From Bacteroidota bacterium (GTDB lineage Bacteria; Bacteroidota; Bacteroidia; Bacteroidales; JAGONC01): 64,000 bases of DNA. This document shows positions 1 to 19,901 of this stretch, in pieces (the first letter of the stretch is position 1; every line of letters begins with the position of its first letter). The stretch lies in NCBI GenBank assembly GCA_026391695.1, contig JAPLDP010000031.1, forward strand, positions 1 to 64,000, read 5' to 3'. A program made the position numbers and the translations under genes. The notes beneath the pieces are model-generated. The model did not search any database, was not told the DNA's origin, and saw only the letters and a list, made by a program, of their open reading frames with translations.

Positions 1-385
1 GCTTACCAATCCGACCAATACAGCACAGACGGCAACCTATACTGTAACACCTACTTCAGGGACTTGCGTGGGAGCAACCTTTACGGTAACGGTCACGGTG
101 AATCCAACCCCCTTCATTACTGATATGACGGCTGCTGTTTGTAATGGTGCGACCTTTACGGTAACTCCTGTTAATGTTACCAACGGAATAGTCCCGGCAG
201 GAACGACCTACAGCTGGCCTGCACCGGCAGTGACCGGAGGGATGACAGGCGGATCTGCAGGCAGCGGTGCATCAAATATCAGTGGAACGCTTACCAATCC
301 GACCAATACAGCACAGACGGCAACCTATACTGTAACACCTACTTCAGGGACTTGCGTGGGAGCAACCTTTACGGTAACGGTCAAC
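1..385 (+). repeat. 288-bp in-frame direct repeat inside the giant adhesin gene
   Basis: Bases 1-97 recur at 289-385, giving a period of 288 bp (96 codons, one PKD-like domain). The array starts at the window edge, so more copies probably lie to the left. It is recent domain duplication within the gene. Confidence 0.85.
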
Positions 386-3300: not shown

Positions 3301-6300
3301 TACGCCAAATCCTATCATCGCCACCATTACCATAACTCCGACAGCGAACAACTGTACCGGTGCTTCCAATGCGTATACCATCACGGTAAATCCAACGCCT
3401 GAACTCAGCAGTTCCCTGAATCTTCCGGCTATCTGCAGTGAGTCACAATTCTACTACATAGCCACCAGCCTTACAAGTAACGTCGTTTTTACATGGCACC
3501 GGGCTGTCATGCCGGGTATCAGTAATCCGGAAGGCAACGGTACTAATACAATTGATGAAGTACTGGAAAACACAACCTACAGCCCCATTCCTGTTACTTA
3601 TCAGTTTACGCTGACTGCCAACGGCTGTACTAACGTACAGAATGTGGTAGTTGTTGTCGCGCCGATACCTACGATGACAAGTCCGCCACCTTCTCCAACC
3701 GTATGCAGTCAATCGCTGTTTTCCTATACACCCTCAGGCCCTGTTGCAGGAACCATCTTCGCGTGGACAAGAGGGGCTGTGGCGGGAATCCAGAATCCTG
3801 CAGCATCAGGAGTTGGAAGCATTAATGAAACGCTCATCAATACAACCACCAATTCCATCCCGGTTATATACGTCTATACATTATCAACCCCTGAGTGTAC
3901 AAATCCCGATCCGGTAAACATAGTTGTTGTCGTGATACCCGCACCGGTGGTCACTGTTTCCGCTTCAGAAACACAGGTTTGCCCTGGAGAATTGTTCGAC
4001 TTATTCTCCTCGTCAAACCTTGGTCCAACGAAACCTCCGGTACTCTTGTCTGAGAACTTTAATGCGGCTACAAATAACTGGACAACACAGAATAATTCAA
4101 CAGGAGGCACACCAGCCAATGCAGCCTGGACGCTTCGACCTGACGGGTATAATTACAATGGGGTGATTTTCCATTCTAATGATAACAGCCAGTTTTATTT
4201 ATCAAATAGTCAGGCTCAGGGTGGTGGAACAACAAGAACTTTTTTAATATCTCCGGCTATGAATACAGTTGGATATACTACCCTCCAACTTGATTTCTGG
4301 CATTACTATCGTGACAGGGGTAACAGTGATGATTTTGCATACATCGAAGTCTCAACAAATGGATCAACCTGGATTGTCAATACAACTTTTAATACTACAC
4401 GAGGTGCAGCAAATAATTTTCGACATGAAACGATAAATTTAAGTGCAGATATTAATAATCCGACGTTTTACATTCGTTTCAGATACACTGCAACAAATGA
4501 TTATTATTGGGCCATAGACAACGTAACCATTACCGGTACCTCTCCATTACCTTCCTGTGAATGGACATCAGACCCACCTAGATTTACGTCCACAGATATT
4601 AATCCCACAGGGGTTTCCCAGGCCCAGACTACTTCTTACATTGTAACTTATGTAGATACTCAGACCAACTGCCCTGGAAGTGATACAGTTACCGTTGTGA
4701 TGGCTCCAATACCGGATGCGAACATTACAGCTGATTACTGTTCAGTTCCGGGTAAAATTGTACTAACTGCGTACCCCTCCGGTTGTAGTTACCTCTGGAA
4801 CACAGGGGCCACCACTCAAGCCATTCAGGTAGATGAAGTGGGTATATATAGTGTCACTGTCACCAATACTGATGGTTGTTCATTGACAGCTTATATAAGT
4901 GTTGCTAATGAGCTTGTTACTGATGGTAATTTCACGAATTTTGTTGCTGCTGCTCCAAGTTTTTTTACGGAATATACTCAGAATCAGGCTTATTATAATC
5001 CTGCCGCACCTAATCCACAACTCACTGGCTTATGGCCGGAAGGATATTATGCAGTGAATACAAGTGCCTGGTATAATCCAGGCACAAATACAGGTTATCA
5101 CCCCGATTTTCATGGCAGGGATCATACCAACAATACTGTTGGACAGAGAAACTTCATGATGATAAATGGGAGTACTACCCTTATTGAAGATCCACCTGGA
5201 AGTGGTAATTGGAGACAGAGAATTATCTGGCAGCAAACAGTAAGTGTTGACCCCAATACTGATTATTATTTCAGTGCATGGGGGATGAACCTTAATCCTG
5301 TAGCTCCTGCTATTTTGCAATTTGAGGTAAATGGAACCCTTGTCGGTTCTATAGATGATCTTGATATCGCACCCAAACCGACATCAGAAGGCGAGGTGAA
5401 CCTGTCAAACTGGGTTCGTTTTTACAGCACTCCGTATTGGAATTCCGGTTCAGCAACGACTGCTGTTATCAGGATACGAAACCTAAATACAATACCAGGT
5501 GGAAATGATTTCGGACTTGACGATATTTCTTTTGGAACCCTATCACCTATTCCTTTAATTATTGATCCTTTGGCGAACAATGGCAATGATCTTTGTGAGG
5601 GGGATACCCTTTACCTGGACGCCAATATCGAAGGTGGACTGCCTCCTTTTAATTTTTCATGGACAGGGCCCGATGGATTTTTATCAAATCTTCCTAATTC
5701 CATAATTCCCCGTGTCACTATGGCAAATGCCGGTTGGTATTACCTTTCGGTTACGGATGGTTATGGATGTCCACCTTTTGTAGATAGTGCATTTTTAAGC
5801 ATCATACCTTCACCCACAGCAACCCTCAGTTCATCAGTCTCTGTATGTGTTGATGATCCGGAACCGATTGTCATATTTACTGGCGCTGATGGTACTGAAC
5901 CGTACACCTTTTTCTACACAGTGAATGGGGGACCGGAACTAGATACCACCACTACCTCCGGAAATTCTGTCAGCATATCTGTCCATACAGACACATCGGG
6001 AATATTTGTTTTTGCTTTGGTGAGGGTGATAGATCTGAATGGCTGTGACAGACCAGAAAACGATGTTTGTACGATAACCATCAGCGATTTACCCGACTGC
6101 CTGATCTCAGGCGCTGATTCATTATGCCCCAACACCTCCGGAAATATATTTAATGGGCCTGCTGGAATGGCTGGTTATTCCTGGAGTATTACAGGCAATG
6201 GAGCCATTGATCCTCCAACCAATGAAATAAATGTTACTGTTACAGCAGGTTCTGACTGTGACAGCACCTTCACATTAACTCTTACTGTTATTAATGATGA

Positions 6301-9300
6301 GGACTGTGACTCCACTTGTTCCATGGTCGTGCAGGTTCAGGATAATATGCCTCCTGCATGGACAACCTTAGCAGGAAGCCTCGATTGTATACTGCAATGC
6401 TCGGATGCGGCAGGATTGGCAAATGCACAAACTCTTGCACCATCAGCAACCGATAATTGCACAGTTTCCCTGACTCCTGTTAAGACAGCTGGGAGTTTTA
6501 TTCCCGACGGCTGCGCTCAAGCCGGCACCTATACCAACACATGGACTGTTTCAGATGCTTGCGGCAATCCGGTTACAACGCCATTTACCCAAATAATCAC
6601 CATTATTGACAATATAGCGCCGGTGTGGACTACACCTGCCGGAGCTTTGGATGTAACACTGGATTGCGGTGATGCAGCAGGTCTTGCCGCTGCCCAGGAG
6701 CTGATGCCGGTGGCAAGCGATAATTGCGATACTTCATTTGTTCCAATAAAAACTTCTGGTCTTTTCGAGCCAGGAGCATGTGCTTATTCAGGGATATACA
6801 CCAATACTTTTACAGTAAGTGACGACTGTGGAAATCCAAGCAGTATATATACCCAGGTGATCACCATCAACGACAATTCGAATCCTGTCATCACTTGTCC
6901 AAACAGCATCAGTATTGACTGTGATGAGTCCATTAATCCAACAAACACCGGAACAGCCATTGCTACGGATAACTGTGATCCTAACCCGGCCATTACTTAC
7001 AGCGATGTAACCATTCCTGGTTCATGCCCTGACTCATACACCATTCAGCGTACCTGGACTGCCACCGATACGTGCAGCAACTCCATCAGCTGCATGCAGG
7101 TGATTTCGATGCAGGATGTCACACCTCCGGTGTTGGTTGGTATACCAGCGGATACTACCGTATCATGCGATGCAATTCCTCCTGCGTCCACGGTTACAGC
7201 CACTGATAATTGCGATTTGTCGGTCACTGTTACTTTTTCCGAAACCAATAATGTTATAAATGGTTGCGGTACGATTACCCGCACATGGAGTGCTACCGAC
7301 GATTGCGGTAATCCCGCACATGCCAGCCAAATAATTACAGTGATTGACAATACCGCTCCCGTGCTTACCGGGGTTCCTGCTGATGTTACCGTATCATGCG
7401 ATGCAATACCTGATGTTCCTGTTGTTACGGTAACCGATAATTGCGATCCTACGGTAACCGTAATATTCGATGAAACTATTAATACGGTTGTGGGTGGATG
7501 CGGCGAGATCATCCGTACCTGGAGCGCTACTGACTACTGTGGTAATACTGTTTCTGATTCACAAACTATAACGGTAGAAGATACGGTAGCTCCCGTTTGG
7601 CTTACCTTGCCCGGCGAGCTGAATGTGACACTGCAATGCAATGATGAGATCAGCCTGGCTATAGCCCAGACATTGGAGCCTATTCCTTTTGATAACTGCG
7701 ATCCTGATGTTGACTCAGTGAAGATATCAGGGTCATTTGTTCCAGACAGTTGTCCCCAGGCCGGTATTTACACAAACACATGGACGGTTACAGACTATTG
7801 TGGCAATACGAGCGAAGTTTTCACCCAGGTGATCACAATTGTTGACAATACACCCCCGGTATGGGATCAAACTCCCAATTTTCTAAACCGCAACCTGGCG
7901 TGTGCAGATATTGCAGGTTTGAATGCAGCTTTGGCTCTTGCTCCCACAGTAACCGACAATTGCGGTATCACAATTACTATAAACCAGGTATCTGATGTCA
8001 CAATCCCTGGCAGTTGTTTAGGGACCTACTCACGGGTGAGAAAATGGACAGCCACTGATAACTGCGGTAATACCAATGCTATTCAATACACGCAAACCAT
8101 AACGGTTACTGATAATGTAGCTCCGGTTTGGGATCAGGTTGCCGGTGTTCTGGATGTATCTGTTGCCTGCGATGATTTTGATGCCCTGAATGCAGCGCTG
8201 GCCTTATCGCCAACAGCTACTGACGAATGCGGCTCCGGCGTTACCATCAGCCTGGAAACTGACAATATTACTCCCGGAGATTGCCTTGGAACCTATATAC
8301 GAGTGAGAACCTGGACAGCTTCCGATGATTGCGGAAATATCAACCCTCTTGTTTACACGCAAACCATCTCGGTAATTGATGATGAGGAACCAGTGTTTTA
8401 CAATATCCCGGTCGATGTTGCCATCAGTTGCGAAGATCCTCTGCCGGCTGTTCCGGACAATATCATAGCCTTTGACAACTGCAGTGATTATGTCACTGAC
8501 GATATTGTGTTTACAGAAAGCGCCCTTATTCCTGATCCCGGCTGCCCGAATGGCGGTACCATCACAAGAATATGGACCGTTGACGACGGCTGCGGGAACA
8601 CTGCAACTGCAACCCAGATCATTACCATTGATGACAATACTCCGACTGTTATCTCCTGTCCCGAAAATCTGAATATTATGGCAGATCCAGGCATGACCTA
8701 TGCCACGGTTACACTTCCTGCTCCGGTTTATTCTGACAATTGCACCCCAGGTGCAAGTATTTCCCTCTCCTGGACGATGAGTGCTCCCACTGCAGGTTCC
8801 GGCAGTGATACGATCCCTGTTCCATTCCAGTTCAATACCGGAACGACCACCGTAACCTATATTGCTACCGACGCTTGTGAAAATGCGGACACCTGTAGTT
8901 TTACGGTGACTGTGGCACCTAACGATCCGCCGGAAATTACTTGCCCGGGGACTATCACGCAAAATACTGATCCCAGCCTGTGCACCGCAGCTATAAGCCC
9001 CGGTTTCCCGACATTAGTTTCAGGAACGGAACCCATCACCTACACCTGGGTGATGACAGGCGCCACCACAGATTCGGGCAGCGGCCCAATTGTGCCGGAT
9101 CCCTATACCTTCTCCCAGGGGATGACAACCATCAGATGGATAGCCACCAATATAGCCGGAGCTGACACCTGCTATCAAATAATCAACGTCATTGATAACG
9201 TACCGCCAACCTTTACCATTACTTACACCACTGTAAGCTATTGTGCGAACAACATTGATTCAGCGCTTTACAATCCAAACCCAACACCTGGCATCATTCC

Positions 9301-9688
9301 TGAATATGATGATCTGACCTACGCACGGCCTGAATACTATTTATTCAGCGAAGGGGATACAATTTTTAACCTTGATCCGGTCATTAACAATTTTAGCGAT
9401 AACTGTTGTGCCGATGATGGCCTTATACTTCATTGGAGAATAGATTTTTCGCCAACGCCCGATCCGTCAACACAAGCACATCTGCCTATTACAAAACCAG
9501 CCATTGCCGATCAGACAGGTCAACCCTCTGAATATGGTGACATTGAATTCCCGGCTGATGGTGTGTATTTCACTGATATCGATCACTATTTATATTATCG
9601 GTTGGAAGATTGCAATGGCAATCTGTCAGCGGAGCAAATGGTGACAATTACTATCAAACCCAGACCGAATGTGGTCAAAACGCCATAA
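2..9688 (+). CDS. Giant PKD-like / HYR-repeat exported adhesin, 5' end outside the window
   Basis: The reading frame is open from the window edge (base 2) to a TAA at 9686-9688, so over 3200 residues of a larger protein are visible and the N-terminus is missing. The first about 1300 residues are tandem PKD-like domains of roughly 95-125 residues, with recurrent ICSG and YTLTANGC motifs. Two jelly-roll-like segments follow, at about 1325-1490 (DFWHYYRD, AIDNVTITG) and 1615-1820 (LDDISFG). From about 2050 to the end there are HYR-type domains with the signature TDNC, TWTATD and ITVxDNxxPV. The last residues (ITIKPRPNVVKTP) do not resemble a type A or type B T9SS sorting domain, which is odd for such an adhesin. 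The role is inferred to be surface adhesion or matrix. It heads a + strand cluster with a type B T9SS adhesin and porP/sprF. Domain type is confident; exact domain counts are not. Confidence 0.85.
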   Translation, partial: LTNPTNTAQTATYTVTPTSGTCVGATFTVTVTVNPTPFITDMTAAVCNGATFTVTPVNVTNGIVPAGTTYSWPAPAVTGGMTGGSAGSGASNISGTLTNPTNTAQTATYTVTPTSGTCVGATFTVTVNVKPIPTLSSSLDPQVVCSGAPFFYHPTSETPGTVFTWTRASVPGITPSTGSGTGDISETLTNSANFSRTVHYLITLTANGCANPQVYDLAVTINPIPNFTSSLTPPGICSGSLFSYTPLSNVTGATFNWSRALVAGIAEPANSGTGNPNEVLTNTTPLPVTVIYAYTVSANGCTNPYTFNVQVVVKPIPVLTSSLTPPGICSGNIFSYTPTSSTPLTIFSWIRATIPGIQEPGTNGTGNPNELLTNTTSNPITVIYVYTLSASGCSNPNAYNVSVVVSPLPVLISDLTPPDICSGTLFSYDPQSNVTGTTFQWSRASVGGILPLGTTGTGNPNEVLTNTTALPISVRYVYTLTASGCQNPTTFNVDVMVNPTPALSSSLTPPAICSGTIFSYTPTSNTPGTTFQWSRAVVAGISNPAATGYGNPNETLYNTTNLTVNVTYVYTLTANGCTNVQNVVVGVKPTPTVNPVANQTWCHGAAVPVTTLTGPVSGTTFSWVNNNTSIGLGASGTGNIPAFTATNLTDDPIIATITITPTANGCGGPTYSYTITVYPRPVLTSSLTPPPICSGTEFSYEPTSNVVNTAFAWSRAAVAGISNSAATGTGNPHEILNNTTVLPVVVTYIYTLTANGCTSPSTYAVVVSVNPNPTLTSTLNPQPICSNTTFSYIPTSGTPGTVFNWHRPAVPGISNAEAYGTGNPNEILINTTNLPVSVTYIYTLTANNCSNVQNVTVIVKPVPTVDPVADQEYCNGDAVTETILTSPVSGTTFVWTNNNTAIGLGASGSGNVPAFIATNTSPSPILATITIIPTAANCSGTPITYTITVYPAATVNAIADQVYCNVDAVPVTVVSGPIAGTTFTWANDNTDIGLPASGSGDVPAFTATNSTNSSILATITITPAYGGCDGIPFSYTITVHPSPSVNPVGNQTYCEGVTAPETILTGTVAGTVFNWVNNNTGIGLSGSGTGNIPAFTATNSTPNPIIATITITPTANNCTGASNAYTITVNPTPELSSSLNLPAICSESQFYYIATSLTSNVVFTWHRAVMPGISNPEGNGTNTIDEVLENTTYSPIPVTYQFTLTANGCTNVQNVVVVVAPIPTMTSPPPSPTVCSQSLFSYTPSGPVAGTIFAWTRGAVAGIQNPAASGVGSINETLINTTTNSIPVIYVYTLSTPECTNPDPVNIVVVVIPAPVVTVSASETQVCPGELFDLFSSSNLGPTKPPVLLSENFNAATNNWTTQNNSTGGTPANAAWTLRPDGYNYNGVIFHSNDNSQFYLSNSQAQGGGTTRTFLISPAMNTVGYTTLQLDFWHYYRDRGNSDDFAYIEVSTNGSTWIVNTTFNTTRGAANNFRHETINLSADINNPTFYIRFRYTATNDYYWAIDNVTITGTSPLPSCEWTSDPPRFTSTDINPTGVSQAQTTSYIVTYVDTQTNCPGSDTVTVVMAPIPDANITADYCSVPGKIVLTAYPSGCSYLWNTGATTQAIQVDEVGIYSVTVTNTDGCSLTAYISVANELVTDGNFTNFVAAAPSFFTEYTQNQAYYNPAAPNPQLTGLWPEGYYAVNTSAWYNPGTNTGYHPDFHGRDHTNNTVGQRNFMMINGSTTLIEDPPGSGNWRQRIIWQQTVSVDPNTDYYFSAWGMNLNPVAPAILQFEVNGTLVGSIDDLDIAPKPTSEGEVNLSNWVRFYSTPYWNSGSATTAVIRIRNLNTIPGGNDFGLDDISFGTLSPIPLIIDPLANNGNDLCEGDTLYLDANIEGGLPPFNFSWTGPDGFLSNLPNSIIPRVTMANAGWYYLSVTDGYGCPPFVDSAFLSIIPSPTATLSSSVSVCVDDPEPIVIFTGADGTEPYTFFYTVNGGPELDTTTTSGNSVSISVHTDTSGIFVFALVRVIDLNGCDRPENDVCTITISDLPDCLISGADSLCPNTSGNIFNGPAGMAGYSWSITGNGAIDPPTNEINVTVTAGSDCDSTFTLTLTVINDEDCDSTCSMVVQVQDNMPPAWTTLAGSLDCILQCSDAAGLANAQTLAPSATDNCTVSLTPVKTAGSFIPDGCAQAGTYTNTWTVSDACGNPVTTPFTQIITIIDNIAPVWTTPAGALDVTLDCGDAAGLAAAQELMPVASDNCDTSFVPIKTSGLFEPGACAYSGIYTNTFTVSDDCGNPSSIYTQVITINDNSNPVITCPNSISIDCDESINPTNTGTAIATDNCDPNPAITYSDVTIPGSCPDSYTIQRTWTATDTCSNSISCMQVISMQDVTPPVLVGIPADTTVSCDAIPPASTVTATDNCDLSVTVTFSETNNVINGCGTITRTWSATDDCGNPAHASQIITVIDNTAPVLTGVPADVTVSCDAIPDVPVVTVTDNCDPTVTVIFDETINTVVGGCGEIIRTWSATDYCGNTVSDSQTITVEDTVAPVWLTLPGELNVTLQCNDEISLAIAQTLEPIPFDNCDPDVDSVKISGSFVPDSCPQAGIYTNTWTVTDYCGNTSEVFTQVITIVDNTPPVWDQTPNFLNRNLACADIAGLNAALALAPTVTDNCGITITINQVSDVTIPGSCLGTYSRVRKWTATDNCGNTNAIQYTQTITVTDNVAPVWDQVAGVLDVSVACDDFDALNAALALSPTATDECGSGVTISLETDNITPGDCLGTYIRVRTWTASDDCGNINPLVYTQTISVIDDEEPVFYNIPVDVAISCEDPLPAVPDNIIAFDNCSDYVTDDIVFTESALIPDPGCPNGGTITRIWTVDDGCGNTATATQIITIDDNTPTVISCPENLNIMADPGMTYATVTLPAPVYSDNCTPGASISLSWTMSAPTAGSGSDTIPVPFQFNTGTTTVTYIATDACENADTCSFTVTVAPNDPPEITCPGTITQNTDPSLCTAAISPGFPTLVSGTEPITYTWVMTGATTDSGSGPIVPDPYTFSQGMTTIRWIATNIAGADTCYQIINVIDNVPPTFTITYTTVSYCANNIDSALYNPNPTPGIIPEYDDLTYARPEYYLFSEGDTIFNLDPVINNFSDNCCADDGLILHWRIDFSPTPDPSTQAHLPITKPAIADQTGQPSEYGDIEFPADGVYFTDIDHYLYYRLEDCNGNLSAEQMVTITIKPRPNVVKTP

Positions 9689-9988
9689 ACTATGAATCCT
9701 ATTATAAACTAAAACTATATGCCTATGAAACACACCTGGGTGCTGGTTTCCGCTCATATACAGTACCTTACGGGAATAGCGCTCAAAACAGAAAATCACT
9801 TAACATGAGTTATTCACATGTGTATCCATTAAAATTTATTGCCTATGAAAAAGGAAGAAAATGAAATCAACGACAGACACGGGGGGAAGTTTCGGATTGC
9901 TGAAACCCGAACCTCTTTCCCCTCTTTAATCTTTTAAATCAATCAAAAACAAATTTTTTTAATTCATTAAATTTAAAATCAATTAATT
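9689..9988. other. Intergenic spacer with no convincing gene
   Basis: About 300 bp between the giant adhesin stop and the next exported protein. Short open frames are present, such as one of 29 codons from 9720, but none has a recognisable signal peptide or ribosome binding site. The right half contains the terminator-like hairpin listed separately, then a very AT-rich stretch just before the next ATG. Confidence 0.5.
9881..9930 (+). terminator. Possible terminator or structured spacer
   Basis: A G-run at 9881-9886 can pair with the TTTCCCC at about 9916-9922, enclosing a smaller GTTTC/GAAAC hairpin, and the right side runs into a T-rich stretch. The geometry is imperfect, so this is a weak call. 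Confidence 0.3.
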
Positions 9989-11056
9989 ATGAAAAAGCAA
10001 TTTTTATTCATTCTGATACTGGCTTTATTAGCTGGTACTAGTCAAGTATTTGCTCAGGCCGTTGGAGGTTCACCACCTCAACCAATAAACTGCGCGGGTA
10101 CAGCTGCAAATCCTATCGCTGGTGTGCCATATGATTACTCGGCATTAATTAACCCTGCTCTTGGTAGCGCTTATTGGTATGCTACCAATTCGACCACTTT
10201 TATGACTGCTGGTGCCCGCCCTGCAGGTATCGAGTTGCTTGCTGGCGGAACTGTTGTTGAAGCTGCAACCAACTATATGGACCTTACCATTGGTGACGCA
10301 TCACCCACGACTACTAACATCACCTGGACTTCAGATGGTTTAGCAGCCAATACTCCTCCAACTGCAACTGATCCTCCTACTCTTTTTGTGGCTCTTGAAT
10401 ATGATGCACCAGCTGCTGGTTGTGCCAATAATGTCAAAGTGTACCCAATTCGTCCTATCAATGCATTTGTTGTTGATATTATGAATATGACACCCGGTGG
10501 AACTCAAACTCCTTCAGGATATGGTGTGGTAGAGACACAATGTTTCGCTGGTGTTCAGTCAGCTGTATGGCAGGCTGCTCCGGCACCTGATGGTAGCATT
10601 GTCTATGATTTTGGAACAAATGTTTTATACTATGAGGTAATTGCGGCCAATTTTACTGAATTATACACACCACAGTTCCAGATTTCGGGCCTCCAGGGAA
10701 ACCAAACAGCAGATTTAGACTGGGGTTATACCATTGGTACTTATGATCATAATGTAACCACTGGTTCGGGCAATGGAATATATGCCAGTCCAGATGTTCT
10801 TACTGATTTGACAAATACTTCTACTGGAGTATCAATTTATGTAAGGTTGACTATGCATAATGCTAATTGGGAAGGGTTGGCACAACTCCCTGTTGAACTG
10901 GCTGTTGATGCAGTAAATTCTGCTCTTCAGGATGATGTCAATAATGCAACCTGTCTTGTCAATACACCATTTGAGGATAATGCTGATCAAACTGTTGATC
11001 CGAGGCCAACTGTTACAGGAGTGGCTCCTAACACATTCCTCCCGGTTGCTCCTTAA
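9989..11056 (+). CDS. Exported protein of unknown function in the adhesin cluster
   Basis: A 355-residue protein with a clear Sec signal peptide (MKKQFLFILILALLAG...VFAQ, cleavage after about residue 22). The mature part is rich in Asn, Thr, Gly and Pro, looks beta-rich, and has a few cysteines (INCAG, AGCANN, ETQCF, ATCLV). No known domain was recognised and the C-terminus (PNTFLPVAP) is not a T9SS sorting domain. The ATG at 9989 follows an AT-rich leader without a strong Shine-Dalgarno, as is common in Bacteroidota. Position between the giant PKD/HYR protein and the type B T9SS protein suggests a role in the same surface structure, by context only. Confidence 0.75.
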   Translation: MKKQFLFILILALLAGTSQVFAQAVGGSPPQPINCAGTAANPIAGVPYDYSALINPALGSAYWYATNSTTFMTAGARPAGIELLAGGTVVEAATNYMDLTIGDASPTTTNITWTSDGLAANTPPTATDPPTLFVALEYDAPAAGCANNVKVYPIRPINAFVVDIMNMTPGGTQTPSGYGVVETQCFAGVQSAVWQAAPAPDGSIVYDFGTNVLYYEVIAANFTELYTPQFQISGLQGNQTADLDWGYTIGTYDHNVTTGSGNGIYASPDVLTDLTNTSTGVSIYVRLTMHNANWEGLAQLPVELAVDAVNSALQDDVNNATCLVNTPFEDNADQTVDPRPTVTGVAPNTFLPVAP

Positions 11057-11292
11057 CCTGCAGGTATGAGCAATGGGTAACGGGCACTGCTTTTTCATAA
11101 AAGGAAGGCAGGCTGTGGCATAGCCATAGCCGGGCTTCTGCTTGCAAAGGCAGGTTGAAAAAGCATGCATGTTGCTAATTGAAAATGAATACCATGCAGC
11201 TCAAGGGCAAACGACGACGAAAGCCATACTGGATCTCCATGAGGCTTTAGCGCCCGGACTTTCCGGGATGCACGTCATTGTTGTACCCGGGC

Positions 11293-11334
11293 TGAAGGAA
11301 TTATGAACGCCACCTGTGTGGCATAAATCCTTCA
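11293..11334. repeat. Interrupted palindrome
   Basis: TGAAGGA at 11293 pairs with TCCTTCA at 11328-11334, and an inner GCCAC (11309-11313) pairs with GTGGC (11318-11322) around a 4-base loop. There is no T-tract, so it is not an ordinary terminator. Confidence 0.6.
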
Positions 11335-11561
11335 GGTTATGGAAAACAAAGCCCTTCATCATACCCGATCGCCAAACCTGGCAACGGTATGTTTCTACTG
11401 CATACGGCAGAACGGCCGTATTATGTGTTTTTATGAGCGAAAGCGCGTGGGAACATTCAACATTCAATATTCAACATTGAACACTCAATCTTCATTTGAA
11501 TATTCAAAATGGAATTTTCATTACAATGTTCAATATTGAGTTGTACGCAAAACGCGGAATG

Positions 11562-11690
11562 CTAAACATTTAGATTATGTATGGATAACATCAAATATGG
11601 ACAAGGTTGCCGGGGAAGGCCGAGAGATTCGCTTTACCATGCGAATGGCCCGCCCGAGGATCCGTTGGACCATTGCAAAGGACCGCCAGG
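11562..11690 (+). repeat. 129-bp spacer repeat, copy 1
   Basis: About 92 percent identical by eye to 11928-12056. It contains a potential hairpin (GGCC...ATTCGC / GCGAAT GGCC) preserved in both copies. An open frame starts inside it at 11581 and encodes a peptide with the motif HANGPPEDPLDHCKGPPG. Confidence 0.75.
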
Positions 11691-11927
11691 CGATGTGCCT
11701 GAACGGGCAAATGGACCACCTCTCAATGCGTTAGGACGCGCTGGACCGGGAATTTTATATTCTTATTTCAGGGAACCTGCTGGCTGTTTAGCGAGCGGGA
11801 ATGCAAGAGGTATGCCCGGAAGGGAACGTTCAGCATTCAATGTTCAAGGGAATGAACCTGTTCATTTAAACAATCAATTATGAGCGGTTACGCGCAACAC
11901 GAAACGCAAAACGCGTAACACGAAACT

Positions 11928-12056
11928 CTAAACATTTAGATTATGTATGGATAATAGTAAATATGGACATGGGTGCCGGGGATGGCCAAGAGATTCGCTT
12001 TACCATGCGAATGGCCCGCCCGAGGATCCGCTGGACCATTGCAAAGGACCGCCAGG
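11928..12056 (+). repeat. 129-bp spacer repeat, copy 2
   Basis: Second copy of the element at 11562-11690, 366 bp downstream. The open frame inside it (from 11947) keeps HANGPPEDPLDHCKGPPG but diverges after the repeat ends. Differences between the copies are a mix of silent and replacement changes, so coding selection is not obvious. Confidence 0.75.
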
Positions 12057-12399
12057 TAAAGGTATGTGCCGGGCCGGACCGTGGGGATTTCACTCTGCCG
12101 TGAACATGACCTGTTGGCTGTATAGCGAACGGGAAGGGGTAGAGTGTGAGATGTAGTGAAGCTGATTCATTGTAGAATGAGCAATTAACAGTGAGTGATC
12201 AGTAATCAACAGTTAATAATTAATTGAATGATTACAATTGGATATTTGAGAAATAGTGCATGGGAAAAACCATTGACAGATTGGGGTGGAAGAGCTATGT
12301 CATGAAAAATACAAAACATTGAACAATCAACATTCAACTTTTAAGGGGGAAATGAGATTAGAAGTGAAAACATAATATAATAGATTATTTCAGGTACCG

Positions 12400-12434
12400 C
12401 TGCAACCTGCAACCTGCAACGTGCAACCTGAAAC
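12400..12434. repeat. ACCTGCA short tandem repeat
   Basis: Repeated units of the type (G)CAACCTG immediately upstream of the gene at 12459. A related tract lies at 32446-32479, upstream of another gene, so this is a dispersed spacer repeat. Confidence 0.6.
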
Positions 12435-12458
12435 ACATAACGAGTAACAAAAAGAAAT

Positions 12459-13157
12459 TTGAAGCTACTATTACATAAAATTCTTCGTTCGGCAGTGGCA
12501 GCTGCGTTGCTCCTGCTGTTGACGGCTCAGGCGATGGGCCAGACGGGGAATTTTGTGTACCAGGGTCAGACCACTGAACTGAGCGTGGTGCAGATGGAAG
12601 GAGACACCTATGTCTGGGAATTATATTCAGATGAGGACCTGACCATCAACTTTGCTACAGTTCCGGGCAACTGTCCCCCGGCAGAGGCGTATTTTGTGAG
12701 CGGCAATACAGGGCCTACCGTTACAGTGATGTGGCTGACCACAGGCATCTACTTCTTCAAGGTGACTGCTTATGATGCCGATAGCTGTACTAATAACTCA
12801 AAGATAGGAAAGATGGAAGTGCTTCCGGGCTATTCATATGGATCATTCCAGAACCCTGAGCCTATTTGCGAGAATGATACGGCCTCGCTTACTGTCGATA
12901 TCACCGGAGGAATAGGACCCTGGAGCATCACTTATACGGATGGAACCAACTCCTGGATGATTGATGACATCCATGAGACCCCGTACACGTTCGTACCGGA
13001 GGAAAATCCAGTAGTGACGACCACTTACTGGATAACATCGGTGACCAACGGAATAGGATTGATAACCGATATTCCTTCCGACCCGGTGATACTGATTGTA
13101 AATCCGAGGCCGGTTACGTCACCAATATATCGCTATGATCCGACGAGTAAAAAATAA
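12459..13157 (+). CDS. Small exported PKD-like protein in the adhesin cluster
   Basis: A 232-residue protein. There is no ATG ahead of the signal peptide; the TTG at 12459 opens a good one (KLLLHKILRSAVAAALLLLL then AMGQ), so a TTG start is likely. The mature part looks like two beta-sandwich PKD/Ig-like domains: TYVWELYSDEDL to KMEVLPG, then EPICENDTASLTVDITGG to DPVILIVNPRP. The C-terminus (RYDPTSKK) is not a sorting domain. The next gene begins 6 bp after its stop, so the two are almost certainly co-transcribed with the type B T9SS adhesin. It may be an accessory surface protein; no specific function is recognised. Confidence 0.75.
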   Translation: MKLLLHKILRSAVAAALLLLLTAQAMGQTGNFVYQGQTTELSVVQMEGDTYVWELYSDEDLTINFATVPGNCPPAEAYFVSGNTGPTVTVMWLTTGIYFFKVTAYDADSCTNNSKIGKMEVLPGYSYGSFQNPEPICENDTASLTVDITGGIGPWSITYTDGTNSWMIDDIHETPYTFVPEENPVVTTTYWITSVTNGIGLITDIPSDPVILIVNPRPVTSPIYRYDPTSKK

Positions 13158-13163
13158 AAGATA

Positions 13164-16100
13164 GTGAAACAAATCAGGTACATAGGATTGATCATTCTGC
13201 TGCTGGTTGCCGGCCGGCTGGCGGGCCAGGGTATTCCTGTGCTCGACACCGTATGCGCAGGTACCGACCGCTACTACCGTGTAGACGGTTCGGCAGGATC
13301 AACCTATACCTGGCTCCTCACCCTGCCGGGAGGCACTACCGATACATTACCATCTGATGCAGATACCCTTGCCATTGCCTGGAACTATAGCCCAGGCACC
13401 TACCTGATGCAGGTGATCCAGCATTCTGACTCGAGCTGCGATGCTATACCCGTTTATGGAGAGTTGATCATCCTTGAATCGCCGGATGTCTTTGCAGGCG
13501 ATAATGATCTGGTCTGCTCCGACAGCACCTATTACCTTGCAGGTTCATGGGCACAGAATATCAGCTCACTGTCATGGACCACCAGCGGCGACGGCATCTT
13601 TAATGATTCTACCCTGCTGCATCCCATTTACACACCGGGAAATAACGACATTTTAATCGGCAGTGTCGTTCTTACCCTTACCGGTGCGGGCATGGGCGCT
13701 GAAGGAGGATGCGAACCGGCCGTTTCGAATGTCACCCTTGCGATTCTCCAGGTTGAAATCAACATCTCAGCCCTGGTAAATGTATCCTGTTACGGGTATA
13801 ACGACGGATTTATACAGTTAGTTGCCTCGGGCGGTATCGAACCCTATACATACACACTGAACGGTGAATCCAACCAGACCGGCTTATTCGAAAATCTCTA
13901 TGCCGGTGACTACGGTTATACTGTATTCGACATCAATGGCTGTACGACCGGGGGCAATATTACCATTACCGAGCCACCGCCAATGGAGGCATTATATAGT
14001 TTCACCCCTGCTACCTGCAATGGGGGCAACAACGGAACGATAACGATCTTTGATGCCTCAGGTGGTTCCGGCACCTATGATTACAGCATAGATGGTACCA
14101 ATTGGCAGACCGCTGGCTTCTTCAATGGCCTGGCTCCCGGGATATACATTCCACAGATAAGAGATGCCATTGTCGTAAACTGTATCTCCATTATTGATAC
14201 TATTGATATTTCAGAGCCCGGAATGCTCAGTGCAACAGTCGATTATACTAATGTGACCTGTTTCAATGCGAATGACGGCACTATAACAGTCACTGATCCC
14301 GTCGGCGGCTCAGGCAGTTATGAATACAGTATTACCGGCTTCCCGTGGCAGTCATCGGGCCTCTTCACGGGACTTGCTCCTGCTTCTTATGAGGTTATAA
14401 TTCGCGACCTGAATGATCCAGATTGCGAAGTGGTGCTGGCCACCATCGACATCGTTGAACCTTTAGCACCTTTTGTCAGCGCAGGCGATGATGCTCAGAT
14501 CTGCTCTAATGAAACCTATACCCTTTCAGGAACCACAAACATGGGTGCTGTAGGGTGGTCGACAAACGGTACCGGTTCATTTGACGATACCACGCTGCTG
14601 GCAGCCACCTACACCCCCAGCGTTGAAGATATTGACTCCGGAATGGTGATGCTGACCCTGACTGCCTTTGCAGGAGGGGATTGTGAAAATATAAGCGACA
14701 CGATGGCACTGATCATCTGGAAACAGGTCACCGTTTTTGCAGGCAGCGATGCCTCCATCTGCGACGGCGACACCTACCAGGTACCCGATGCGGTCGCCAC
14801 CGACTATGCTGCATTATTATGGACACACGATGGAGCAGGGATCCTGACCGGAGATACCACGTTGACGCCCACCTATATACCGGACACAGGAGAAACCGGC
14901 CTTATCACACTCATATTGTTAGCCACTCCGATGGGTTCCGGAACATGTCCGGAAGTTCAGGATACCATGACCATCATCATTACAGGATCACCTATGGTCA
15001 ATGCAGGCGTTGATGCTCCGATCTGCTCAACCGATACCTACACCCTATCAGGCACTTCCAATATGACCTCTGTGCTGTGGACAACGAGTGGCACTGGTAC
15101 TTTCGATGATCAGACCTTGCTTAATGCAACCTATACATCCAGTACTGATGATATTAACGCCGGTCAGGTAATCCTTACCCTTACAGCCAATGGCAACGGA
15201 AATTGCGAACCTGCCAGCGATGAGATGGTGCTGACCATCTGGAAACAGGTCACCGTTTTTGCAGGCAGCGATGCCTCCATCTGCGAAGGCGACGCCTACC
15301 AGGTACCCGATGCGGTCGCCACCGACTATGCTGAATTATTATGGACACACGATGGAGCAGGGATCCTGACCGGAGATACCACGTTGACGCCCACCTATAT
15401 ACCGGACACAGGAGAAACCGGTCTTATCACACTCATATTGATGGCCACCCCGATGGGTTCCGGATGTCCGGAAGTTCAGGATACCATGACCATCATCATT
15501 ACAGGAGCACCTGTGGTCAATGCAGGCATCGATGGAGAGATATGCTCAACCGATACCTACACCCTATCAGGCACTTCCAATATGACCTCTGTGCTGTGGA
15601 CAACGAGTGGCACTGGCACCTTCGATGATCAGACCTTGCTTAATGCAACCTATACACCGGGTACTGATGATATTAACGCCGGTCAGGTAATCCTCACCCT
15701 TACAGCCAATGGCAACGGAAGTTGCGAACCTGCCAGCGATGAGATGATACTGACCATCTGGAAACAGGCCACCGTTTTTGCAGGCACCGATGCCTCCATC
15801 TGCGAAGGCGACGCCTACCAGGTGCCAGATGCCAGCGCCACCGACTATGCTGAATTATTATGGACACACGATGGAGCAGGGATCCTGACCAGAGATAACA
15901 CGTTGACGCCCACCTATATACCGGACACAGGAGAAACCGGTCTTATCACACTCATATTGATGGCCACCCCGATGGGTTCCGGATGTCTGGAAGTTCAGGA
16001 TACCATGACCATCATCATTACAGGATCACCTGTGGTCAATGCAGGCGTTGATGGAGAGATCTGCTCAACCGATACCTACACCCTATCAGGCACTTCCAAT

Positions 16101-18935
16101 ATGACCTCTGTGCTGTGGACAACGAGTGGCACTGGCACTTTCGATGATCAGACCTTGCTTAATGCAACCTATACACCCAGTACTGATGATATTAATGCTG
16201 GTCAGGTAATCCTTACCCTTACAGCCAATGGCAGCGGAAATTGCGAACCTGCCAGCGATGAGATGGTGCTGACCATCTGGGAAAAAGCTACTGCCTACGC
16301 CGGTAATGATGCCTCGATTTGTGAAGGAGACCTCTACCAGGTGCCCGATGCCAGCGCCACCGGATATGTATCCATAGAGTGGATCCACAACGGAGCAGGA
16401 ACCCTGACCAATGGAACAACCCTCTCGCCTATCTATACGCCAGCTCCCGGAGAAACCGGCCTGGTCACACTCATCATGACCGCGATTTCAGAAGGAGGCG
16501 GATTATGCCCGGATGCCATGGATTCGACGATGATAGAAATTACCGGGGTACCTATCTGCTCTGCCGGAAGCGACGACGAGATCTGTGAAACCGAAACATA
16601 TACCCTGTCAGGGATGGTAATCAATTCTTCCTCTGTCCTCTGGACTACAAGCGGTACAGGTGTTTTCGATAACGCAAACATTCTGGCTCCAACTTACACC
16701 CCGGGTCAGGAAGATGTCGCTGCAGGGCAGGTCACCCTTACCCTGACCGCATTTGGTAACGGAAGTTGCGGAGCTGTAAGCGATCAGATGGAACTGACTA
16801 TCGTTAAGCTGGCCGAGGTTTATGCAGGCTCCAATGACTCCGTGTGTGAAGGTGATAGTTTCCAGATACAGGGCGCTGCTGCCAGCAACTTTGTCAGTCT
16901 GTTATGGACACACAACGGGCTCGGAACTTTGACCGATGAGACCACCTTATCCCCGACCTATACACCCGGATCCGGAGAAACAGGCCTCATCACCTTGATC
17001 CTCAGTGCTATCTCATTACCACCCTGCGAGTCAATAAACGACACCATAATCCTGACAATCCTGCCACGGGTTGAGGTTGATGCCGGTGCGGATGCAACGG
17101 TCTGCGAGGGCGTAACTTATGTAATTCATGGCGCAACGGCAGTAAATTTCAGTGAATTGCGCTGGTCGACGAGTGGTACGGGATCTTTCAATGATTCTAC
17201 TATTATGAATCCAGAATACACACCAAGCATAGATGACATTTCATCCGGAGGCGTCACTCTGACCCTTACCGCTTTCGGTCTAGGCAACGATGGTACCTGT
17301 CCGCCGGCTGTTTCAGATCTGGTTATCTGCCTCAGTGTGCTGACGATAGACGCTACAGTCACCAACGCCTCCTGCCCGGGAACACCCGACGGATCCGTCA
17401 CCATGGCAGCAACCAACGGAAATGAGCCTTATGAGTATACTCTGAATGGAAATACTAACAATACCGGTTATTTCGCTGATATGCTTGCCGGTACCTATAA
17501 TTATCTTATCAGTGATGCAAACGGATGCAAAGCTCAGGGAATAGTGACAATCGGAATAACAGATGATCAGGCACCTGCAATTAACTGCCCGGCACCCGTT
17601 GTAACCAATACTGAACCTGGTGAATGCTTCTCTTTCAATCCTTTACTCGGATCACCTTCTTCTGTGACAGATAACTGCGGTATCGACACTGTTTTCAACA
17701 ACTTCCTTGCATTGTTCCCTGACGGTCAGGTCCCGGTCGGTTCCTGTACTATTACATGGACAGTCATTGATAATTACGGCAACTCAGCTACCTGTTCACA
17801 ATTGTTGTCGGTTATCGACAACGAGTATCCAGAAATCTCATGCCAGGACATCAATGGTCTCGCCGAACAGGGAGCATGCGAAGGATATGTTACTATACCT
17901 ACACCTGAAGTATCGGATAATTGCCAGATTGATAAGGTCACTAACAGTCAGAATGGCACCGGCGATGCCAGTGGAATCTATCCCGTAGGAACCAATACTG
18001 TAGTATGGTCGGTTTCGGATATCTATGGAAACACATCCACATGCCATTTCAGTGTAACTGTACAGAGTGACCCGGTGGCTGTGGATGACTATGCTTCCAC
18101 TCCTGATGAAGTGCCGGTGGATATTTATATTCTGGGTAACGATAAATATTGCGAGAGCGACAATGGATCAGCATCTGCAACTATTATCAGGGATCCGGAA
18201 CATGGTCTGGCGATAATGACTAATGCCATCAGTTTCTTAATTTACCAACCGGATAATGACTTTATTGGAATCGACAGCCTTGAATATGAACTATGCGATT
18301 ACACAGGTGAATGTGATACTGCAACTGTGTATATTACGGTATTTTACTATAACAGCCCACCTGTAGCTGTAATAGATTACGATTCAACGATCGTCAACAT
18401 TCCAAAAGTAGTCGCCGTACTCGCGAATGATTATGATCCGGATGGACAAATTATTGACTTTGAGCTGGTCACGCAGCCTATGCATGGGACATCCAGTAAG
18501 ATAATAGCAGACAGGGCGATTTTATACAGCCCCCTCGAGGATTTCATTGGTATCGACGAATTCTCTTATGCCATTTATGATGATGGTAATCCGTCATTAA
18601 GCAGTACGACAAAGGTCATCATGTACGTGCTTGATGAGGATGACTTTCCGGGACCTCCAATTATCATTTATAATGCATTGACTCCTAATGCTGATGGCAA
18701 GAACGATTTCTGGAAACTAAAAGGAATCGAACTATTCCCGGATAATCAAGTCATTATCATGGACAGATGGGGGACCATTATAGCAGAATTCGAACATTAT
18801 GATAATGCAACGGTGCGATGGGAAGGAAAAAACAAAGAAGGCTTCATGGTACCTAACGGAACCTATTACTATTTTATCTCACTATCAGATCATAGATTAT
18901 TTTACAAAGGATGGGTATTTCTATACCAGGATTAA
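13164..18935 (+). CDS. SprB-like T9SS type B adhesin with gliding-motility-type C-terminal domain
   Basis: A 1923-residue exported protein with a GTG start at 13164 and signal peptide (IGLIILLLVAGRLAGQ). After it come PKD-like segments, SprB-type repeats (VSCYGYNDG, YTLNG, YTVFDINGC), and then about eight alternating Ig/PKD-like domains with AGxDASICEGD and SGTGTFDDxTLL motifs, three pairs of which are near-identical at DNA level. HYR-like domains lie at about 1470-1635 and two cadherin/VCBS-like repeats (AVDDYASTPD, VLANDYDPDG) at about 1635-1830. It ends in a CHU_C/type B sorting domain, about 1837-1923 (NALTPNADGKNDFW, MDRWGTII, PNGTYYYFI). Such proteins cross the outer membrane by T9SS and typically pair with a PorP/SprF protein, which is the next gene, 42 bp downstream. 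The likely role is surface adhesion or gliding; the ligand is unknown. Confidence 0.88.
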   Translation: MKQIRYIGLIILLLVAGRLAGQGIPVLDTVCAGTDRYYRVDGSAGSTYTWLLTLPGGTTDTLPSDADTLAIAWNYSPGTYLMQVIQHSDSSCDAIPVYGELIILESPDVFAGDNDLVCSDSTYYLAGSWAQNISSLSWTTSGDGIFNDSTLLHPIYTPGNNDILIGSVVLTLTGAGMGAEGGCEPAVSNVTLAILQVEINISALVNVSCYGYNDGFIQLVASGGIEPYTYTLNGESNQTGLFENLYAGDYGYTVFDINGCTTGGNITITEPPPMEALYSFTPATCNGGNNGTITIFDASGGSGTYDYSIDGTNWQTAGFFNGLAPGIYIPQIRDAIVVNCISIIDTIDISEPGMLSATVDYTNVTCFNANDGTITVTDPVGGSGSYEYSITGFPWQSSGLFTGLAPASYEVIIRDLNDPDCEVVLATIDIVEPLAPFVSAGDDAQICSNETYTLSGTTNMGAVGWSTNGTGSFDDTTLLAATYTPSVEDIDSGMVMLTLTAFAGGDCENISDTMALIIWKQVTVFAGSDASICDGDTYQVPDAVATDYAALLWTHDGAGILTGDTTLTPTYIPDTGETGLITLILLATPMGSGTCPEVQDTMTIIITGSPMVNAGVDAPICSTDTYTLSGTSNMTSVLWTTSGTGTFDDQTLLNATYTSSTDDINAGQVILTLTANGNGNCEPASDEMVLTIWKQVTVFAGSDASICEGDAYQVPDAVATDYAELLWTHDGAGILTGDTTLTPTYIPDTGETGLITLILMATPMGSGCPEVQDTMTIIITGAPVVNAGIDGEICSTDTYTLSGTSNMTSVLWTTSGTGTFDDQTLLNATYTPGTDDINAGQVILTLTANGNGSCEPASDEMILTIWKQATVFAGTDASICEGDAYQVPDASATDYAELLWTHDGAGILTRDNTLTPTYIPDTGETGLITLILMATPMGSGCLEVQDTMTIIITGSPVVNAGVDGEICSTDTYTLSGTSNMTSVLWTTSGTGTFDDQTLLNATYTPSTDDINAGQVILTLTANGSGNCEPASDEMVLTIWEKATAYAGNDASICEGDLYQVPDASATGYVSIEWIHNGAGTLTNGTTLSPIYTPAPGETGLVTLIMTAISEGGGLCPDAMDSTMIEITGVPICSAGSDDEICETETYTLSGMVINSSSVLWTTSGTGVFDNANILAPTYTPGQEDVAAGQVTLTLTAFGNGSCGAVSDQMELTIVKLAEVYAGSNDSVCEGDSFQIQGAAASNFVSLLWTHNGLGTLTDETTLSPTYTPGSGETGLITLILSAISLPPCESINDTIILTILPRVEVDAGADATVCEGVTYVIHGATAVNFSELRWSTSGTGSFNDSTIMNPEYTPSIDDISSGGVTLTLTAFGLGNDGTCPPAVSDLVICLSVLTIDATVTNASCPGTPDGSVTMAATNGNEPYEYTLNGNTNNTGYFADMLAGTYNYLISDANGCKAQGIVTIGITDDQAPAINCPAPVVTNTEPGECFSFNPLLGSPSSVTDNCGIDTVFNNFLALFPDGQVPVGSCTITWTVIDNYGNSATCSQLLSVIDNEYPEISCQDINGLAEQGACEGYVTIPTPEVSDNCQIDKVTNSQNGTGDASGIYPVGTNTVVWSVSDIYGNTSTCHFSVTVQSDPVAVDDYASTPDEVPVDIYILGNDKYCESDNGSASATIIRDPEHGLAIMTNAISFLIYQPDNDFIGIDSLEYELCDYTGECDTATVYITVFYYNSPPVAVIDYDSTIVNIPKVVAVLANDYDPDGQIIDFELVTQPMHGTSSKIIADRAILYSPLEDFIGIDEFSYAIYDDGNPSLSSTTKVIMYVLDEDDFPGPPIIIYNALTPNADGKNDFWKLKGIELFPDNQVIIMDRWGTIIAEFEHYDNATVRWEGKNKEGFMVPNGTYYYFISLSDHRLFYKGWVFLYQD
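14721..16280 (+). repeat. Three near-identical 519-522 bp in-frame repeats
   Basis: Units begin at 14721, 15243 and 15762 (522, 519 and 519 bp; each encodes about 173 residues, a pair of Ig/PKD-like domains). They differ by only scattered substitutions and one 3-bp indel, while units on either side are diverged. This indicates recent amplification or gene conversion and is a likely site for copy-number variation or assembly collapse. Confidence 0.88.
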
Positions 18936-18977: not shown

Positions 18978-19901
18978 ATGAAAAAGCTACTATTACTTCA
19001 ACTGGCTCTGTTCCTTACAGTCATTGCTTTCGGTCAGAGGGATGCTTTTTACTACCAGTACTTGAACAATTACCATATCCTGAATCCTGCATTTACAGGA
19101 ACTCAGGAGAAGCTGACTTTTAACCTGACTGACCGGCATCAATGGGTAGGAGTGAGAGGTGCTCCCAATACAATTACTTTTGACTTCCAAACGGTTATTA
19201 AAAGTGAAAAAGTTGGCATTGGAGGGTATATCTATACCGACCGGTTGGGTCCGGCCTTAGATTTCGGTCTATTTACGACCTATGCTTACATCCTTGAAAT
19301 GCCTGATGCAAGGTTATCGTTCGGATTGCAATTCGGTTTTAAGCAAACTGTAATTGACTGGGACAGATTACAGATGGAAGATATGGATGATTGGTACCTG
19401 CTCGAACAGCCACAGCCCAGGATCATGCCCGATGCAGATTTTGGAATTTATTACTACAAGGAAAAATTCTTTGCAGGATTCTCCACCAAACACCTTTTTG
19501 AAAAATATTTTGCTGATTGGACCAAGATTAACACAAATTTACCATTGCTGCTTAATCAAAATATGTACCTGTATATCGGAGGATTTATCAATATAAGAAA
19601 GGAATTTATATACAAGCCATCTATATTGATTAAATATGTTGATGATGGCAGTTGGGGGTTTGATGCCAATTCCTGCCTAATGGTTTACAATCTCTTCTGG
19701 ATAGGGATTTCTTACCGGTCAAATCATAACTCTTTTGTTTTTATGACAGATATAAAAGTGAATTCAAAGCTTAGAATCGGATATTCATATGACACGTATC
19801 TTAGTGATATTCAACATTATAGCATCGGAACACATGAAATCAGGATCAGCTATGATGCCCAGCAATTACAGAAAAGGAGATACAGACGTTTATATTATTA
19901 A
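18978..19901 (+). CDS. PorP/SprF-family type IX secretion membrane protein
   Basis: A 307-residue outer-membrane protein with a signal peptide (MKKLLLLQLALFLTVIAFGQ) followed by the family signature YYQYLNNYHILNPAFTG and a beta-strand-rich body typical of PorP/SprF (HQWVGVRGAP, GIGGYIYTDRLGP, GFSTKHLFEKYF, LRIGYSYDTYL). Members of the family, such as SprF of Flavobacterium johnsoniae, are needed to localise the adjacent type B cargo. Here the gene lies directly after the CHU_C adhesin and is very probably in the same operon. The ATG at 18978 gives a normal signal peptide. A truncated second member of the family lies 330 bp downstream. Confidence 0.9.
   Translation: MKKLLLLQLALFLTVIAFGQRDAFYYQYLNNYHILNPAFTGTQEKLTFNLTDRHQWVGVRGAPNTITFDFQTVIKSEKVGIGGYIYTDRLGPALDFGLFTTYAYILEMPDARLSFGLQFGFKQTVIDWDRLQMEDMDDWYLLEQPQPRIMPDADFGIYYYKEKFFAGFSTKHLFEKYFADWTKINTNLPLLLNQNMYLYIGGFINIRKEFIYKPSILIKYVDDGSWGFDANSCLMVYNLFWIGISYRSNHNSFVFMTDIKVNSKLRIGYSYDTYLSDIQHYSIGTHEIRISYDAQQLQKRRYRRLYY

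Follow-up and report, generated by a model that had tools for sequence, protein, structure and literature searches.

A Tandemly Duplicated Small ORF, Probably Protein-coding, in the Spacer of a Type IX Secretion Adhesin Cluster

Organization of the locus

The window, which is the whole 64,000-nucleotide stretch of Bacteroidota DNA analysed here, carries near its start a cluster of genes on the forward strand. A 3206-aa surface protein with PKD and HYR domain matches is encoded at 68-9688, upstream of a 355-aa gene at 9989-11056 that has a sub-threshold match to a lipoprotein site. A spacer follows at 11057-12458, which agrees with the 1.4-kb gap within a surface-protein cluster reported by the initial annotation of this DNA. 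Beyond the spacer are a 232-aa gene at 12459-13157, with sub-threshold matches to PKD and SprB repeats, a 1923-aa protein with SprB repeats and type B sorting by the type IX secretion system (T9SS) at 13164-18935, assigned by domain matches, and a PorP/SprF family protein at 18978-19901, assigned by family match. The 355-aa and 232-aa genes serve as syntenic anchors for the spacer. With PKD/HYR/SprB-repeat proteins and PorP/SprF as its flanking genes, the locus resembles the SprB/PorP-SprF adhesin clusters of the T9SS, and its gene content points to a Bacteroidota host. Past the full PorP/SprF gene, a 142-aa ORF at 20246-20674 matches only the C-terminal part of PorP/SprF and is a partial copy.

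Several features lie in the spacer besides the repeats that are the main subject of this report. Shortly 3' of the 355-aa gene, at 11087-11097, GCTTTTTCA is followed by a GC-rich hairpin when the sequence is read by eye; the same arrangement is found in seven of nine other spacers viewed, with one extra T in L068. A conserved element at 11191-11346 (+) contains an 18-aa ORF at 11194-11250 (MQLKGKRRRKPYWISMRL) followed by a hairpin formed by CTGAAGGA and TCCTTCAG. The element is kept in the corresponding spacers of L064 (1641-1799; 78% identity, E 2.5e-28) and L070 (1823-1988; 73%), and partly in G003. Its short ORF reads MQLKGKRRRKPYWISMRL or MQLRGRRRRKPFWRTMRL, and is 20 aa long in L070 (MQLKGRHKRRRTPSWIPMRL); these 18- to 20-aa ORFs are Arg-rich, and CGACGACGA is kept in three of the four rows. 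The hairpin has 8 base pairs, seven of which are unchanged across all four rows. The element could be an attenuator-like leader, its codon counts being too few to decide whether the short ORF is coding. A simple intergenic repeat of the CAACCTGCAACCTGCAACG type at 12398-12434 accounts for 25 of the 33 places in the genome that the spacer matches, and simple repeats related to this type sit ahead of both repeat copies.

The repeat pair

The spacer contains a direct repeat of 146 nt (D1), with copy 1 at 11545-11690 (+) and copy 2 at 11911-12056 (+). The two copies are 90% identical over this length and start 366 nt apart. Within them, a 129-nt core (11562-11690 and 11928-12056) is 94% identical by BLAST, with eight mismatches per 129 nt. 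The spacing is thus as first described, and the identity of about 92% given at that time was slightly low. Chance can be ruled out for the core match, given an E value of 2.3e-51 for copy 2 in a BLAST search of the organism's own genome.

Only two copies were found in the 3.6-Mb assembly, whether by DNA search or by protein search; a third protein match, at E 0.65, was set aside as chance. The hundreds of copies unrelated to this cluster, which had been named as a refuting finding, are therefore not present, and with a copy number of two a dispersed, MITE-like mobile repeat was rejected. Searches of phages (with DNA), plasmids (with the 37-aa core), viral contigs (with the 69-aa ORF) and genome contigs gave no match. 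The window repeat is also absent by DNA search from 59 relatives.

The similarity between the copies extends beyond the core and fades, as the initial annotation had noted. Upstream, 47 of 93 positions agree in an AT-rich segment and 10 of 17 directly before the core; the core segment itself agrees at 123 of 134, and is followed by a 33-nt gap in copy 2. Past the gap the agreement is 24 of 48, then 24 of 31, then 12 of 28. The middle of these three segments surrounds a stretch of resumed similarity, 11775-11801 (+) downstream of copy 1 and its partner 12109-12135 (+) downstream of copy 2, which is 89% identical over 27 nt, with a one-base frame offset between the copies. The repeat core is the best-kept part of a tandem duplication of about 370 bp.

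Coding signal in u1 and u2

Each copy contains the start of a small ORF. The first, u1, lies at 11581-11883 (+), starts with ATG and encodes 100 aa beginning MDNIKYGQGCRGRPRDSLYHANGPPEDPLDHCKGPPG; the second, u2, lies at 11947-12156 (+), also starts with ATG and encodes 69 aa beginning MDNSKYGHGCRGWPRDSLYHANGPPEDPLDHCKGPPGKGMCRAGP. The shared open frame HANGPPEDPLDHCKGPPG that had been noticed earlier is the same in both copies and falls within u1 and u2. The comparison of synonymous and nonsynonymous changes between copies, which had been proposed as a check, favours synonymous sites in one frame. In the ORF frame there are six synonymous and three nonsynonymous changes (pS 0.247, pN 0.035), whereas the best alternative, an antisense frame that contains a stop, gives 3.5 synonymous and 4.5 nonsynonymous, and the remaining frames give 0-2 synonymous and 7-8 nonsynonymous. 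When the same nine changes were placed randomly, 122 of 20,000 trials reached as many synonymous changes.

The two ORFs also differ by a unit that respects the frame. Copy 1 alone has an extra 33 nt at 11691-11723 (+), seen in the alignment as 11 codons that make up one GPP repeat step. GPP occurs in u1 at residues 23, 34 and 45, an 11-residue step, and the difference in length between the two copies is exactly 33 nt, in frame, or one 11-residue G-P-P step. The small protein would lengthen or shorten in frame by a step of the form xGPPxDPLxHx.

Another explanation is that the copies are two small non-coding RNAs, or form a structured cis-acting RNA, and that the open frame is incidental; small RNAs were among the options first listed. 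The hairpin that suggested them was confirmed at 11618-11652 (+) in copy 1 and 11984-12018 (+) in copy 2: ATTCGC pairs with GCGAAT and is closed by GGCC/GGCC, with a 5-nt bulge between the stem parts, and the 35-nt piece folds alone at -13.1 and -13.6 kcal/mol. That the hairpin is unchanged in both copies, that the adjoining hairpin-bearing element at 11191-11346 is kept at other loci, and that the best-kept block of the G224 and G694 spacers, described below, is free of codon constraint in the ORF frame are all points in favour of an RNA. However, the fold stability of the copies is unremarkable against shuffles (z of -0.31 and -1.00), Rfam gave no match for 9600-13000 up to an E of 1, the changes between the window copies track codon positions, and the hairpin lies within a coding frame and was not seen by eye in the L064 homolog. 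These results weaken the small-RNA option, to which we give little credence. Scans of promoters and terminators gave one promoter site versus 3.4 in shuffles, and two terminator sites versus 1.7.

Alternatively, the pair could be a tandem duplication that is decaying within a spacer rich in repeats, without present function, and whose core is alike through recent copying or conversion. The spacer does contain simple dispersed repeats, and divergence is much greater in the flanks than in the core. Past the 33-nt gap, the one-base offset puts the copies in different frames, and such frame offsets near the ends of the window copies suggest decay. In this terminal region either version may be the ancestral one: the frame of u2 shows fewer amino-acid changes, and that of u1 reads ARGMP, which by eye is like L070. 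The bias of the changes to synonymous sites and the recurrence of the ORF class in this spacer across six families both count against decay, which is an unlikely explanation, if less so than an RNA.

Protein coding is the best reading of the pair because the changes fit one frame, the fold is no stronger than that of shuffles and the 33 nt correspond to an 11-residue step. Sequence comparison points to u1 and u2 as a tandemly duplicated gene that very likely encodes a small, probably disordered, Gly/Pro/Arg-rich protein belonging to a fast-evolving class of spacer ORFs.

A class of small ORFs at the same place in other genomes

Homologs of the 355-aa protein were used to locate corresponding spacers. 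Among 295 genomes of the order, the organism's own included, 11 gave a total of 13 matches, and four more came from 3 of 80 further genomes (80 of 96 newly drawn genomes were searched), for 17 loci including the window. Fourteen of these entered a motif test; L067, L072 and L122 were excluded, as the 232-aa homolog lies within about 240 nt; of these three, L122 had its ORFs read. The test looked for ORFs of at least 50 aa with an NKHGP-type motif (N[KR]HGP) or a CRGRP-type motif (R[GA][RW][PS]) in the first 22 residues. Twelve of the 14 spacers have such an ORF, compared with a mean of 0.09 and a maximum of 1 in shuffles, for a motif set that was picked after reading the ORFs. With N[KR]HGP alone, 7 of 14 spacers are positive and the shuffled maximum is 0.

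The 12 positive loci span six families (f1, f6, f49, f73, f100 and f119). Spacer length is at least about 795 nt at the 11 positive loci that have both anchors; at the twelfth, L070, the 232-aa homolog was not found within the fetched stretch. The ORF is missing at L073 and L121, where the spacer measures 441 and 518 nt, respectively. A small ORF was predicted for two new G702 loci, and the prediction failed at both: one has a 518-nt spacer and the other is almost without a spacer. From the last small ORF to the start of the 232-aa gene is 302 nt in the window, and about 24 to 690 nt across the loci. The u1/u2 locus is one member of a small-ORF class that is hypervariable and is tied to the adhesin clusters of the T9SS.

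Two side observations concern the ORFs themselves. At L069, the small ORF at 1648-2034, in the same spacer position, contains eight-codon tandem repeats (PRDGTERK/PRDGTEGM). In 11 of 14 small ORFs the start codon is preceded, at no more than 20 nt, by another ATG in a different frame, with 4.2 expected from the local background; the arrangement is often ATGnATG or ATGAATTGATG, as at 11577-11583 and 11943-11949.

NKHGP was rejected as a genome-wide marker. It was found in 52 of 393 genomes, but a reversed control was also present in many of the genomes listed, and most of the 37 NKHGP loci that were read proved to be out of frame or short. The motif is informative only within syntenic spacers. 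Three places outside such spacers, L114-L116 in G122 and G751, were dropped, since no 355-aa or 232-aa homolog was found in the fetched stretch.

Homology and constraint among the spacer ORFs

Homology could be traced most clearly between u1 and L064, a spacer at the same position in a different family. The Smith-Waterman score is 51, reached by none of 200 shuffles, and the alignment begins at Met in both sequences (M.NIK...CRGR...GPPG...ALGR). At the DNA level, 2 of 300 shuffles matched the score of u2 against L064 and 8 of 300 that of u1. Among 12 other spacers, L064 (0/200) and L069 (2/200) alone resemble u1, although the L069 likeness could be chance, given 24 comparisons; the other ten were not significant. 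What the 12 ORFs share is position and motif, and from these a common descent of all 12 is plausible. L070 is placed by motif only, as its DNA comparison fell short of significance (55 and 50 of 500 shuffles). Taken whole, the G003 spacer does not clearly match the peptides of the window (25 and 5 of 100 shuffles; 34 and 7 of 200); by eye, a GGGAGAGGTATGTCC-like motif is common to both.

The peptide-gene option of the initial annotation is thus supported by the codon pattern, by the syntenic ORF of a different family that is homologous to u1, and by the motif-bearing ORFs at 12 of 14 loci; of the other options listed with it, which were a small RNA and an unclassified repeat, the former is weakened.

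Constraint was also measured among orthologs in other genomes. Over the first 43 codons of the G755 and G224 orthologs there are 13 synonymous and 10 nonsynonymous changes (pS 0.424, pN 0.102), with an antisense frame that has one stop close behind at 11.5 and 10.5. When the entire 531-nt block of G224/G755 is counted, pN/pS in the ORF frame is 0.76, no better than in three other frames at 0.69-0.80. A 126-nt block is the best-kept part of the G224 and G694 spacers (L065 and L112), 83% identical and gapless, and in the ORF frame it has 4.5 synonymous and 16.5 nonsynonymous changes, a ratio of 1.11. Because this block is without codon constraint, something besides protein sequence may hold it. 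In these g8 orthologs the ORF may end earlier, or the 3' block may be held otherwise, perhaps as RNA or DNA sequence.

Wider searches did not extend the family. The 37-aa core gave five weak matches in 294 other genomes of the order (E 0.0044-0.09), judged to be chance on reading. Profile A3 gave five weak matches in the phylum besides the window (E 3.3e-4 to 0.0092), judged to be chance for 395 genomes; the best of these, L035, bears some likeness by eye. Profile A7, in 393 genomes, recovered its own training rows and two matches at E of about 0.005. The strong G253 and G161 matches are therefore not independent.

Possible roles of the small ORFs

Searches of Pfam, PHROGs, NCBIfam and PDB sequences found no domain in the small ORFs, so that family libraries give them no name. 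AlphaFold2 modelling (3 sequences) shows no fold, with a mean pLDDT of 42.5, which fits both a disordered protein that acts in trans and an ORF that acts in cis by pausing the ribosome. For the former, the product itself would be the function: disordered, fast-evolving proteins that might, for example, bind nucleic acid, associate with the envelope or act as chaperone-like partners of the adhesins. Codon-level constraint, seen when the window copies are compared and again in the first codons of the G755/G224 ORF, is in keeping with such a role, as are the composition of 13 ORFs (11% Arg, 10% Gly and 8.5% Pro) and the fact that no match outside adhesin clusters was accepted. The lack of a library domain counts against it, as does the fact that little is kept beyond short motifs, and reading the 13 ORF sequences by eye shows no evident N-terminal secretion signal or membrane segment. 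A trans-acting protein is a serious possibility that nonetheless falls short of probable; it and a cis-pausing ORF are about equally likely.

Tandem short ORFs with Cys and Gly/Pro also bring to mind a pair of RiPP-like precursor peptides, in which Cys-containing sequences with GPPG repeats would be processed to a modified product. Yet no modifying enzyme was found with Pfam and/or NCBIfam among 12 neighbouring window proteins, a scan that reached to 35.3 kb with the exception of a 1345-aa ORF at 25068-29105, and by eye the NKHGP-type ORFs do not preserve the positions of Cys. We consider this explanation very improbable.

The case for cis action comes from motif content. PPG and PPE are strong targets of EF-P. 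PPG occurs 10 times in 13 small ORFs totalling 1,843 aa and 10 times in 57 long ORFs of the same loci totalling 37,152 aa, so that it is about 20-fold denser in the small ORFs. RAGP occurs five times in the small ORFs and not at all in the long ones. These counts omit the L070 ORF and treat related rows separately; the long ORFs comprise every ATG-started stretch of 250 aa or more in the six frames of the window and 13 loci, spurious ones included, apart from any with NKHGP in the first 20 residues. Shuffling within each ORF reached the observed count of PPG in 0 of 2000 trials and that of RAPP-like motifs in 2 of 2000.

The RAGP carriers are u1 (residues 53-56 of 100), u2 (42-45 of 69), L065 (39-42 of 188), L113 (39-42 of 187) and L112 (46-49 of 311); the motif is missing from the other 8 of 13 ORFs, and in no carrier is it near the C-terminus. 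Since u1 and u2 are related, as are the three g8 orthologs, the motif represents about two or three independent events.

RAPP-like motifs are reported to stall ribosomes and to be avoided in bacterial proteomes (PMC12992588). An example is YwcI, a 100-aa peptide with RAGP at residues 88-91 that is encoded upstream of sacT and arrests translation (PMC10987492). Such motifs are reported from small upstream ORFs (PMC12992588, PMC10987492). The enrichment of PPG and RAGP, together with stalling by such motifs elsewhere, leads us to propose, with low confidence, that the small ORFs are cis-acting stalling leaders. PPG/PPE and RAGP, 39-56 residues from the start, would make ribosomes pause, and the pause would tune transcription-translation coupling, or the translation of the genes that follow in the cluster and encode exported proteins.

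Counting against a stalling leader are the lack of a signal by eye, the variable distance to the next gene, the frame-shifted copies and the failed G702 prediction. That translation of the small ORF is itself its function may be considered a doubtful but credible idea. Taken together, the explanation as a duplicated small-protein gene and pausing leader is tentative, a shade firmer than that idea by itself. More speculative, and on balance unlikely, is a general cis-acting pausing module in T9SS adhesin clusters, in which signal-less, hypervariable ORFs that change by in-frame 11-residue steps and by tandem duplication would set the amount of adhesin.

Comparison with known systems and significance

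Among known systems, the closest are the RAPP-like arrest peptides, such as SecM (RAGP), ApcA (RAPG), ApdA/ApdP (RAPP) and YwcI (RAGP). These are reported to be small proteins that contain an RAGP or PP motif and whose genes precede others, and to have a patchy distribution (PMC10987492, PMC12992588); the spacer ORFs are like them in these respects. Unlike the arrest peptides, the spacer ORFs have no apparent localisation signal, carry RAGP in 5 of 13 cases and away from the C-terminus, and neighbour adhesin genes rather than secA, secDF or yidC. In being dense in PPG they are also like the EF-P-dependent polyproline (PPG, PPE) pause sites of leaders, but such motifs occur in ordinary proteins as well. 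No literature on a small-ORF class in the spacers of T9SS adhesin clusters was found among open-licence papers.

Small genes in the long spacers of adhesin clusters are easily missed. The class described here is constant in position but not in sequence, and is rich in motifs that the long proteins of the same loci lack. It offers a way to ask directly if, in bacteria that use type IX secretion, exported surface proteins are regulated by stalling peptides.
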